Assembly (NCBI GenBank): GCA_902593125.1
Contig: CACJGU010000001.1
Coordinates: 1-64,000 of the forward strand
DNA: 64,000 nucleotides
Direction: 5' to 3'
Source of the DNA: an uncultured Alphaproteobacteria bacterium
GTDB lineage: Bacteria; Pseudomonadota; Alphaproteobacteria; HIMB59; GCA-002718135
Shown: piece after piece, positions 9,690-59,482 of the stretch
Position numbering within the stretch: position 1 is the first letter of the stretch
How the letters are laid out: the number at the start of each line of letters is the position of its first letter
Made by a program: the position numbers and the translations under genes
Notes under the pieces: model-generated
The model's input: only the letters and a program-made list of their open reading frames with translations
The model's database searches: none
What the model was told of the DNA's origin: nothing

Positions 9690-10874
9690 ATGAAATCTAA
9701 ATTTGAAAGAATCAATAGACTTCCACCATATATTTTTTCAGAAATAAATAATCTTAAGTTCAAATTACGCTCACAAAAAAAAGATATTATTGATTTTGGT
9801 ATGGGAAATCCAGATATGCCAACACCAAACCATATTAGACAGAAATTAAAAGATACAATTGATAAACCTGGAGTAGGGCGATACTCTGTCTCTAAAGGTA
9901 TTAATGGATTAAGAAAAGCTCAAGCAAAATATTATAAAAGAAGATTTGATGTTAATCTTGATATCAATAAAGAAATTATTGTAACCATTGGTTCTAAGGA
10001 AGGATTAGCAAATCTTGCTCAGGCAATTACGTCCAAAGGCGATAAGATATTGTGTCCAGATCCATCATATCCGGTTCATCCATATGGTTTTACTATAGCA
10101 GGTGCTAAATTAACTCCCTTAAAAACAATTTATAATGGAAAATTTAATTCAGAAAAATATTTAATTAATATTGAAAAGAATATGAAAAAAAACTTTTCAA
10201 TAAAAGCCGTAATAGTTTCTTTTCCTTCAAATCCTACTGCACAAATAGTTGATTTGGATTTTTATAAGGATCTTGTAAAATTAGCTATAAAATATGAAAT
10301 ATATATTTTATCTGACCTTGCTTATTCTGAAATATATTTTGAAAATAATCCTCCTCCATCAATTTTAGAAGTTAATGACGCTAAAAAGGTAGCGGTAGAA
10401 TTTACTACTTTATCAAAAACATATGCAATGGCTGGATGGAGAATTGGTTTTGCTGTTGGAAACAAAACCTTAATTGAAGCATTAACTAAAATTAAATCTT
10501 ACGTAGATTATGGTGCCTTTACTCCAGTTCAAGTTGCTGCAACGGCAGCTTTAAATGGTTCTCAACAATGTGTTGAAGAAATTAGACAGACTTATAAAAA
10601 AAGAAGAGATGTTTTGATTGAAACATTTGCAAGAGCCGGTTGGGAAATCCCAAAACCAAAAGCTAGTATGTTTGTTTGGGCACCTATTCCAGATAAATTT
10701 AAAAAACTTGGATCTATGAAGTTTGCAAAAAAATTGATGATTAATGCAGATGTAGCCGTAGCGCCAGGATTAGCATTTGGAAAAAATGGCGAAGGTTTTG
10801 TTCGAATTGGTTTAGTTGAAAATACTCAAAGAATTAGACAAGCTGCAAAAAATATAAAAAAATTTTTAGATTAG
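9690..10874 (+). CDS. Class I/II PLP aminotransferase (alanine/LL-DAP aminotransferase-like)
   Basis: DFGMGNPDMPTPNHI, SFPSNPTAQ, TLSKTYAMAGWRIGFAVGN. Confidence 0.93.
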   Translation: MKSKFERINRLPPYIFSEINNLKFKLRSQKKDIIDFGMGNPDMPTPNHIRQKLKDTIDKPGVGRYSVSKGINGLRKAQAKYYKRRFDVNLDINKEIIVTIGSKEGLANLAQAITSKGDKILCPDPSYPVHPYGFTIAGAKLTPLKTIYNGKFNSEKYLINIEKNMKKNFSIKAVIVSFPSNPTAQIVDLDFYKDLVKLAIKYEIYILSDLAYSEIYFENNPPPSILEVNDAKKVAVEFTTLSKTYAMAGWRIGFAVGNKTLIEALTKIKSYVDYGAFTPVQVAATAALNGSQQCVEEIRQTYKKRRDVLIETFARAGWEIPKPKASMFVWAPIPDKFKKLGSMKFAKKLMINADVAVAPGLAFGKNGEGFVRIGLVENTQRIRQAAKNIKKFLD

Positions 10875-46834: not shown

Positions 46835-46939
46835 CTAATTGAATTCTGTAGCGATATCTTGAAGAGTAGGGTACTCATTTCTCTCTCCTTTTATGTAAAA
46901 ATTACGCGCTTCAGTGTAATCAGGACGTTTTCTTGTCAT
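46835..46939 (-). pseudogene. Truncated HTH-like 34-aa ORF
   Basis: MTRKRPDYTEARNFYIKGERNEYPTLQDIATEFN then stop inside a helix-turn-helix-like segment. Confidence 0.4.
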
Positions 46940-47022: not shown

Positions 47023-47757
47023 TTAGTTTTTTAAATTCTTTAAAAGTAAGTTTTTAAATTCTTCAACAGCAACTGTAGCAGGTTTATAAATAGCAAAATC
47101 AAATTGATCTTGATTACTTGATGGTTCCAGATTTAATTCAATTGTTGGTTTGCGCATATCTTTAAACATCGAAACGAAACCAGCAGCAGGGTAGACTTGT
47201 CCTGAAGTGCCTATAGAAACAAATAAACTAGATCGTTGAGCTAAATCTTGAATTTCATCCATTTGCATGGGCATTTCACCAAACCATACAATGTGAGGTC
47301 TCATTTGAGAGCCGCATTTAGGGCATTTATGGGTTTCATTTAGGTCCTCTAGCCATTCAAATACATGATTATCATCCATGATACATCTCGCTTTATTTAG
47401 CTCTCCGTGCATGTGAATTATTGATGATGATCCTCCAATCTCATGCAAATTATCGATATTTTGTGTAACTATATGAATTTTATATGTTTTTTCTAATTCA
47501 TGAAGAAGAATATGAGCCCTATTTGGCTTAATTCCTGAATTTAATTCTTTTCGACGTTTATTATAAAAATCATAGACAAGAGTAGGGTTTCTATAGAATC
47601 CTTCGGGACTAGCAACATCTTCAATCTTATGATTATTCCAAAGACCATCAGAGTCTCTAAATGTTTCAATCCCAGACTCTTTACTTATACCAGCACCGGT
47701 TAATACAAAGATCTGGGAATTAGCTGAAATCTGCGGTAATTGTTCCATTTGATACAC
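47023..47757 (-). CDS. cobB: Sir2-family NAD-dependent deacylase (CobB-like)
   Basis: VLTGAGISKESGIETFRDSDGLW, TQNIDNLHEIGG, HGELNKARC, CPKCGSQMRPHIVWFGE. Confidence 0.94.
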   Translation of the reverse strand: MYQMEQLPQISANSQIFVLTGAGISKESGIETFRDSDGLWNNHKIEDVASPEGFYRNPTLVYDFYNKRRKELNSGIKPNRAHILLHELEKTYKIHIVTQNIDNLHEIGGSSSIIHMHGELNKARCIMDDNHVFEWLEDLNETHKCPKCGSQMRPHIVWFGEMPMQMDEIQDLAQRSSLFVSIGTSGQVYPAAGFVSMFKDMRKPTIELNLEPSSNQDQFDFAIYKPATVAVEEFKNLLLKNLKN

Positions 47758-47877
47758 TATATACAGTATTTTATTACACGTGAAAATCTATATCTAGTTT
47801 GTAATATTAGAAATAGATTTAGATAATATATATAAATAATTGATATATAGTTATATTATTTATCACTTGACTATTAT

Positions 47878-47901
47878 TTACGATAACTGTAATTATCGTA
47901 A
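47878..47901. promoter_or_regulatory. Perfect 9-6-9 inverted repeat, dif-like core site or operator
   Basis: TTACGATAA CTGTAA TTATCGTAA, downstream of TTGACT, 10 bp before recombinase ATG. Confidence 0.75.
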
Positions 47902-47910
47902 TATATATAT

Positions 47911-48969
47911 ATGATTAAAATATCATTAAATGAAAATGTAAGTAAATTAAAAGAAAAGTCTAAGGCAAAGAATACACAAGATAAATATAATGGAGATTGG
48001 CTAAAATTTATCGACTATTGTAAAAATAAGTACAATTGTAGTCCGTTAGATGTTGATGATTTAGATAGCGCATATGCTTTAACAGCTAATTACATGGATT
48101 GGCTTCATGAAGATCCAGAGGCGAAAGTATTGAAGGGAACAAGTAATATCCCAGGAAGAGAAAAATTAAATAATAACCCCTACTCTGCATCTGCTTATAA
48201 AGCCTCAACTATACAAAGAATTTTAGCTTCTATAACTTATAAATATAGAATGAATGGTTTTCAATTTGATAGAAAAAATCCAAATATATCAGAAACTATA
48301 AGTGCAATAGTAAGAGATGAAAAAAATAATAAATCTGGTCAAGCAAAAGAGCTTCTAAAAGCAGATATTGAAAAAATAATAAATAAAATTCCAGCCGATA
48401 ATGATGATTTTAGAAACATAAGAGATAAAGCTCTAATATTAATTGGTTTTTATAGTTTTTGCAGAAGATCAGAGCTGTTAGGTATGAAATATGAACATTT
48501 AAATTTTGAAGATGATGGTGTTCAAGTTTTAATTCCTTTTTCCAAAACTGACCAAAAAGGTGAAGGTAGAATGATATATTTACCTAAAAATAATTCTCCT
48601 TTTTGCCCAGTATCTGCTCTAAAAAATTGGTTAGAAGTAGCATTAATTGACTCAGGTCCACTCTTCTACAAAATAAACAAAGCTAATAACATTGAAAAAT
48701 ACATTCTTAATAATAAAAATCAAAAAGTAAGTTTAACAGATACAAGCTTTGTTTTAATTTTAAAGAAAAGAGCTGAAGACGCTGGAATAGAAAATTGTGA
48801 TAAAATTTCTGGTCATAGTCTAAGAATAGGCTCAATAACTCAATCAAGAATGAATGGTGTACCGACTCATGAAATAATGGCGCAAAGTGGTCATAAAACT
48901 ACACAAATGATAGATAAGTATACAAAATTAACAAATATAAAAGAAACTAGTGCAGCTAAAAAATTATAA
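47911..48969 (+). CDS. Tyrosine recombinase/phage integrase family
   Basis: FCRRSELLGMKYEHL (R), SGHSLRIGSITQSRMNG (HxxR), MAQSGHKTTQMIDKYT (H/W..Y). Confidence 0.93.
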   Translation: MIKISLNENVSKLKEKSKAKNTQDKYNGDWLKFIDYCKNKYNCSPLDVDDLDSAYALTANYMDWLHEDPEAKVLKGTSNIPGREKLNNNPYSASAYKASTIQRILASITYKYRMNGFQFDRKNPNISETISAIVRDEKNNKSGQAKELLKADIEKIINKIPADNDDFRNIRDKALILIGFYSFCRRSELLGMKYEHLNFEDDGVQVLIPFSKTDQKGEGRMIYLPKNNSPFCPVSALKNWLEVALIDSGPLFYKINKANNIEKYILNNKNQKVSLTDTSFVLILKKRAEDAGIENCDKISGHSLRIGSITQSRMNGVPTHEIMAQSGHKTTQMIDKYTKLTNIKETSAAKKL

Positions 48970-58691: not shown

Positions 58692-59482
58692 ATAATCAAC
58701 AAATAGTAGAAGCATCTAAGATTTTATTTAATCATAAATTAAATAAAACTGGATTAGATAACCTTAAACATCTCGAACCAAAAAGTTTAGATGATGCTTA
58801 CAAAATACAAGATGAATTAAAAGTTCATTATCTAAGTTTAAAAAATAATATTTGTATTGGGAAAAAAATTGGATGCACTTCTAAAGCAGCACAGGTACAG
58901 ATGAATGTATCTGAACCTTTCTATGGAAATTTATACAGTAAATATTCATCACAAAATTTAAACAAATTAAATTCAAAATATTTTTTTGAACCATTTGTAG
59001 AACCTGAAATAAGTTTTAGAATAAAAGAAGATATAGATATTTCTAAAGCCCCCTACTCTACAGAGAACATTAAAAACTTATTAGATGGTATATTATGTTC
59101 AATTGAAATTGTTGACTTTAGATTTCAAAAACCACTAGCAGATATTGGAGCAATTAATCTTATTTCTACCAATGGCGCATCAGATTATTGGATACACAAT
59201 GATAAAGTGTTTGAAATTAATGAAATTGATTTAACTGATTTTGAAGTTGCTTTATTTATTAATAATAAGCTTCAAGAAAAGGGTAATACAAATAATGTTC
59301 TTGATAACCCCCTTAATGCAGTTCAATGGTTAATTAATACCTTATGCAAAAAGGGAGAACCAATGTTAAAACATCAATTTATTTCTTCGGGTTCATGTAC
59401 AAAAGCTTATAGATTAAATCCTGGAAGTAGAATTAAAGCTGATTTTGGTAGACTTGGAATTATTGATTTCGAATACATTTAA
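58688..59482 (+). CDS. 2-keto-4-pentenoate hydratase-like protein (FAH family)
   Basis: DDAYKIQDELK, GKKIGCTSKAAQVQMNVSEPFYG, EPEISFRI. Confidence 0.92.
   Translation: MNNQQIVEASKILFNHKLNKTGLDNLKHLEPKSLDDAYKIQDELKVHYLSLKNNICIGKKIGCTSKAAQVQMNVSEPFYGNLYSKYSSQNLNKLNSKYFFEPFVEPEISFRIKEDIDISKAPYSTENIKNLLDGILCSIEIVDFRFQKPLADIGAINLISTNGASDYWIHNDKVFEINEIDLTDFEVALFINNKLQEKGNTNNVLDNPLNAVQWLINTLCKKGEPMLKHQFISSGSCTKAYRLNPGSRIKADFGRLGIIDFEYI

Follow-up and report, generated by a model that had tools for sequence, protein, structure and literature searches.

The inverted repeat at positions 47878-47901 is, with a probability of about 0.87, the chromosomal dif site of a Xer system with a single recombinase, which would resolve chromosome dimers with the aid of FtsK and probably represses its own gene. 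It is located in the 64,000-nucleotide stretch analyzed here (the window), directly upstream of a tyrosine recombinase gene. The conservation of the site, its single copy, its position at the terminus, the polarity of the surrounding signals, the absence of XerC and XerD, the presence of FtsK-gamma and the SAR11 homologues were all observed directly. From these data, we infer binding, cleavage, FtsK activation, dimer resolution and autorepression. The window belongs to a genome of 1.26 Mb in 38 contigs with 69% completeness, and those relatives that bear names, e.g. MarineAlpha5, are single-cell genomes and MAGs of marine Alphaproteobacteria.

The inverted repeat and the adjoining recombinase gene

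The repeat, TTACGATAA-CTGTAA-TTATCGTAA, is composed of two arms at 47878-47886 and 47893-47901, matched in 9 of 9 pairs, and a 6-bp centre, CTGTAA, at 47887-47892. The letters and coordinates of this perfect 9-6-9 repeat given in the initial annotation were confirmed, and it was proposed as a dif site, a feature without assigned strand, on the basis of its conservation and single copy. The 64-kb window contains two perfect 9-6-9 repeats against 1.57 expected from simulated sequence of the same composition. As any such repeat occurs near chance level in AT-rich DNA, the repeat by itself was rejected as evidence (2 present, 1.6 expected by chance) and its significance rests on conservation across relatives. 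The exact 24-mer, with up to three mismatches allowed, has an expected count of 0.09 in the window. The 22-base core, TACGATAACTGTAATTATCGTA, was found to be invariant across 66 distinct loci, while the flanks average 78-85%; the other invariant block in this comparison is TTGACT. Lack of conservation in homologous loci had been named as the result which would speak against the site, and the core proved identical in all 66 distinct loci checked. The view that the inverted repeat arose by chance in AT-rich intergenic DNA agrees with the 1.6 repeats expected in the window, but it is refuted by the full conservation of 22 bases, both across the 66 loci and in other genera, and its probability is negligible.

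The gene following the site (47911..48969, plus strand) codes for a single Xer-type tyrosine recombinase of 352 aa, and almost every genome with a match carries it once. Its earlier assignment as a tyrosine recombinase is supported by Pfam (PF00589, E=1.6e-16). Alignment of 15 relatives showed R185, K212, H302, R305, H328 and Y337 to be invariant, consistent with the catalytic set. The catalytic residues are intact, and the site is AT-rich, two-armed and present once. Scored against curated models, the protein reached 46.9 bits for XerC (cut-off 330), 31.9 bits for XerD (cut-off 335) and 18.2 bits for XerS (cut-off 267). As all these scores are below the cut-offs, the protein would act like a single Xer recombinase standing outside those protein families. 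The AlphaFold model of the recombinase is poor (pLDDT 50), so the Foldseek ranking, with Cre first and then XerH, was taken as a hint only. A second tyrosine recombinase (G000:C2:37525-37947, L100; 338-aa frame) occurs sporadically, in some relatives only, and is probably a mobile-element integrase.

The gap between the end of the site and the ATG (47911) is 9 nt, with the same spacing in relatives. TTGACT, which had been put forward as a candidate -35 element, was confirmed at 47867..47872 (plus strand) and is identical in 66 loci. The promoter scan combined it with a TG-extended -10 at 47888..47896 (plus strand; TG at 47888-47889, AATTAT at 47891-47896) over a spacer of 18 nt, which places this putative -10 within the repeat; shuffles of the region gave at least as many promoter-like sites. 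Site and promoter thus overlap as in an autoregulated promoter-operator. The autoregulatory operator suggested in the initial annotation is favored by this overlap and autoregulation is plausible, with repression itself predicted from the arrangement. A more restrictive explanation is that a dimeric protein, either the recombinase or another regulator, represses through the palindrome without any recombination. Palindromes overlapping promoters are typical operators, the -10 is inside the repeat, the -35 TTGACT shows the same invariance as the core, and promoter overlap alone could account for part of the conservation. This explanation was nevertheless considered improbable, as it leaves unexplained several of the features described in the following sections.

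The site was found at one place per genome, adjoining the recombinase gene, in 72 of 102 genomes of the genus (search allowing at most one mismatch). No second copy was found in the genome of the window, where the next-best places carry 2-3 mismatches and do not exceed the count of the reversed-pattern control. No mobile element was seen around the site within the 64-kb window, and an Rfam search returned no match. On the other side of the site lies a divergent sir2-like (sirtuin) gene, an ORF at 47023..47757 (minus strand), and the order sir2-site-recombinase was observed in 56 of 56 genus loci. Tyrosine recombinases often adjoin their own att site, and the repeat could accordingly be where the recombinase integrates a mobile element or flips an invertible segment. 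This is very improbable, because the site is present in a single copy per genome, with the second att copy (attL/attR) anticipated earlier searched for in the own genome and the genus genomes, and because the gene is universal and conserved by vertical descent, in synteny with sir2 in 56/56 loci. The suggestion that excision or inversion would uncouple the gene from its promoter is unsupported, the site occurring once per chromosome with no surrounding element. That the repeat is the crossover site of the recombinase itself is very likely.

Position of the site at the replication terminus

In all seven contigs of 172-400 kb, GC skew was positive on the left side of the site and negative on its right side, and the maximum of cumulative skew was located 5-26 kb from the site. 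The local left-right contrast in skew is not site-specific, being equalled by 13-56% of other positions in six contigs and, with a wider flank, by 73% of other positions in G082; the terminus placement rests on the cumulative maximum and KOPS polarity and not on the local contrast. GGGNAGGG, which is the KOPS of E. coli and was chosen beforehand, was found 24 times toward the site and once away from it. The octamer GAGTAGGG, selected post hoc as the best from the data, occurs 43 times toward the site and never away from it, the seven contigs being close relatives and the motif counts not independent. For AGTAGGG, six contigs have the strand switch between -309 and +293 bp, and G055 has it between -1037 and +288.

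In the window, 5 of 5 copies of the KOPS-like GAGTAGGG are directed at the site. They are situated on the plus strand at 9871..9878, 46864..46871 and 47580..47587, the last within the sir2 gene, and on the minus strand at 48178..48185, within the recombinase gene, and at 59051..59058. Within 700 bp of the site, 57 of 67 loci had a copy on the left, near -309, and 61 of 67 had one on the right, near +288. The octamer at 48178 encodes Pro-Tyr; Pro is specified by CCC in 58/58 relatives, against 13.5% of the Pro codons elsewhere, and Tyr by TAC in 57/58, against 22%. The retention of these synonymous codons indicates selection on the DNA word itself. Terminus position, converging FtsK-orienting words together with FtsK-gamma, and linkage of gene and site were all found, and a site acting as an operator only would leave the terminus position and the KOPS convergence within about 300 bp unexplained. 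The dif-like reading of the repeat has been borne out by conservation, terminus position and KOPS polarity. The earlier proposal to search for the chromosomal dif elsewhere did not hold, since 47878-47901 was judged to be the chromosomal dif.

As a dif site, the repeat would have its two symmetric arms occupied by a pair of protomers of the 47911-48969 recombinase. In a chromosome dimer, FtsK, guided by the converging KOPS-like GAGTAGGG/GGGNAGGG signals, would unite both copies of the site at the division septum. The recombinase would then swap strands across the 6-bp centre and convert the dimer to monomers. Occupancy of dif probably represses the recombinase gene, because its own -10 sits in the site, and the supply of the recombinase would in this way be self-limiting.

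Distribution of the recombinase and comparison with other Xer systems

The recombinase was found in 76 of 102 genomes of the genus (median completeness about 75%) and in 6 of 6 genera of the family, representing 82 of 110 genomes. Among genomes with at least 80% completeness, 9 of 37 lack the gene; as FtsK-gamma is absent about equally often, much of this absence is attributable to incomplete genomes. No XerC or XerD was found in the 110 genomes of the 6 genera, and none of the 102 genus genomes was above the cut-off of the XerD model (best matches E~1e-15). The recombinase is the only conserved Xer, with no second conserved recombinase detected. The sister family in the same order possesses two XerC/XerD-type proteins (E about 1e-65 and 1e-57, with matches ranging from ~1e-57 to ~1e-67, themselves under the strict cut-off), and the window-type recombinase was not found in the 52 genomes sampled from it, including a one-contig genome of 1.4 Mb. 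All seven genera of the order possess FtsK with the gamma domain. XerCD appears to have been replaced in the family of the window while FtsK was retained; a pure operator would not explain why FtsK-gamma is kept without any other Xer.

Outside the order, the nearest relatives of the recombinase were found in one-contig genomes of 1.2-1.3 Mb. Genome G366 is presumably SAR11, as four SAR11 16S probe sequences match it exactly and mimics of the site are present in Pelagibacter phages. In SAR11, which ranks among the most abundant bacteria of the ocean, the recombinase has 317 aa and is near-universal: it occurs in 230 of 297 genomes of the family, covering 13 of 14 genera, and in 112 of 128 genomes that are near-complete, and none of 197 SAR11 genomes gave an XerD-model match at E<=1e-30. 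The palindrome TATTACTAAYGATAA-TTAATTG-TTATCAATAGTAATA or a variant of it was observed right before each SAR11 ATG examined. In the phylogenetic tree, the recombinases of SAR11 and of the window family formed one clade with a support of 99/99. The site of G366 is at 674.7 kb. Skew in sampled 20-kb pieces of this genome drops from positive values to about zero at 660-700 kb, being clearly negative from 820 kb, and AGGG-type words in sampled pieces switch strand preference near the skew turn, in coarse agreement with the site. Carnoy and Roten listed Pelagibacter ubique as without dif/Xer, and the case was taken to prove that streamlined genomes can do without the system (PMC2731167). The present comparison suggests that SAR11 and a marine family of related lifestyle keep the function through one divergent recombinase which was missed by standard searches.

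A close parallel is XerS/difSL of streptococci and lactococci, where one recombinase of ~356 aa is encoded by a gene adjoining dif at the terminus (PMC5357621, PMC2731167). Both form a single terminus module of one recombinase and adjacent dif, whereas difSL has 31 bp with an 11-bp centre and the window site is 9-6-9 with symmetric arms, placed inside the promoter of the gene. XerH/difH of Campylobacter and Helicobacter likewise employs one recombinase (354-362 aa), depends on FtsK and has an AT-rich terminus site which is often gene-linked (66 bp in Arcobacter); it differs in site sequence, and the structural match to XerH rests on a model with pLDDT 50. According to a review, single-recombinase systems may be characterised by linkage of gene and dif (PMC5357621). 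In Legionellales, a clade thought to be without dif/Xer, the divergent single recombinase XerL and its dif were recognised via hijacking by mobile elements (PMC9765430). That system belongs to another bacterial order, while gene and site of the window are fused at the promoter. With XerCD/dif, the window site shares the ATAA-N6-TTAT inner arrangement, terminus position, KOPS polarity and FtsK-gamma, but XerCD uses two recombinases, none of which is found in the family of the window or in 197 SAR11 genomes. Cre/loxP also has symmetric arms and one recombinase, and of the proteins with solved structures Cre is the one that matches best in sequence (E=3e-4). Unlike the chromosomal, universal and terminus-bound system of the window, Cre is an enzyme of phage P1 with an 8-bp spacer and no FtsK.

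Divergent loci, islands and phage copies of the site

Some loci of other genera have kept the core at a recombinase identity as low as 58-66%. In G109 (L176, G109:C21; 66% recombinase identity), TTGACA is shifted by 6 bp and the promoter spacing is altered. The 22-mer in this locus is identical but inverted relative to the gene, with the centre TTACAG, which indicates that conservation acts on the palindrome including its centre and not on the -10. Invariance of a non-palindromic centre even when inverted against the promoter is not expected of a pure operator. In G060 (41% identity), recombinase and arms have diverged together, giving the perfect site GTATGATAA-GTGTAA-TTATCATAC. In G103, a different 13-7-13 palindrome, TTAGGTTTGATAT-GGGAGAG-ATATCGAACCTAA, is situated upstream of the gene. 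Divergent SAR11-like recombinases occupy the same locus in G103:C42 (L172/L248) and G032:C1 (L182), and these loci may represent turnover of recombinase/site modules.

Foreign DNA was found directly to the left of the site in G059, with the junction at the site; the right half-site and all rightward DNA are native, and the left arm is TTACGTTAA. Besides a divergent sir2 and a second recombinase (39% identity), the island contains MzaB-E, Vsr and a cytosine methyltransferase. A like island is present in G060, which has the divergent recombinase only. Both are Mza-type anti-phage defence islands (L242:2598-12067 in G059:C2 and L244:10344-19415 in G060:C6); MzaB-E of G059 were named by PADLOC and the G060 genes are similar. 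A diverged sir2 also accompanies the island recombinases, and none was seen beside the SAR11 loci examined. The layout in G059 is the trace expected from an element entering at the centre of dif, such integration being suggested by one junction; the second junction was not found in the assembly. Islands at the locus in G059 and G060 could speak for an att site. Taking the repeat as dif, the terminus site would be a hotspot for islands, which look like passengers. Alphaproteobacterial tyrosine recombinases with palindromes GAGTCCGATAA-N6-TTATCGGACTC about 50 bp downstream were observed at L277:2088 and L272:2275 (recombinase-strand coordinates), and L264 has TTCCGATAA-N7-TTATAGGAA near the recombinase start. 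Such recombinases are a possible source pool of the window-type Xer lineage.

Copies of the SAR11 site were found in phage sequences, including the IMG/VR contigs L418, L428 and L438. Three IMG/VR contigs possess TATTACTAACGATAA-TTAATTG-TTATCAATAGTAAAC in intergenic position by terminase-like genes, named from reading of the ORFs, and other IMG/VR contigs have TTCCGATAA-TTAATTG-TTATCGGAA, the form found in the SAR11-family genome G258. Among cultured pelagiphages, HTVC100P matches the SAR11 site with 92% over 38 bp (E=1e-5; L442:3001-3037), and weaker matches were present in HTVC035P (L443:1501-1547) and HTVC106P (L444:1501-1526). The phage sites, two in tandem, are intergenic and stand in unannotated DNA adjoining the terminase gene. 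A protein search of viral contigs returned no relatives of the window recombinase, which is further evidence against an att site, and the SAR11 recombinase found one unrelated integrase only. For the site of the window family itself, mimics in viral contigs were limited to short matches, with 8-11 of 13 arm pairs. The SAR11 phage mimics suggest, by analogy with other Xer-using elements (PMC9765430), that pelagiphages may integrate through the host recombinase at dif copies; they have no explanation if the palindrome is an operator and nothing else.

A wider scenario is put forward tentatively, at slightly below even odds. Chromosome dimers of SAR11 and one family of the HIMB59 order would be resolved, in place of XerCD, by a distinct Xer lineage which was apparently drawn from recombinases with CGATAA-N6/7-TTATCG sites of their own; occupancy of the promoter-embedded dif would set the enzyme supply, and integrase-less pelagiphages would carry dif copies to integrate with the host enzyme. 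The recombinase lineage and the dif within a promoter are new here, as is their presence in marine groups reported or assumed to be without dif/Xer. XerCD appears to be replaced between sister families, and the site provides a terminus marker for fragmented genomes. Chromosome dimer resolution in streamlined marine bacteria becomes directly testable, and the phage copies suggest a route by which integrase-less pelagiphages may become prophages.
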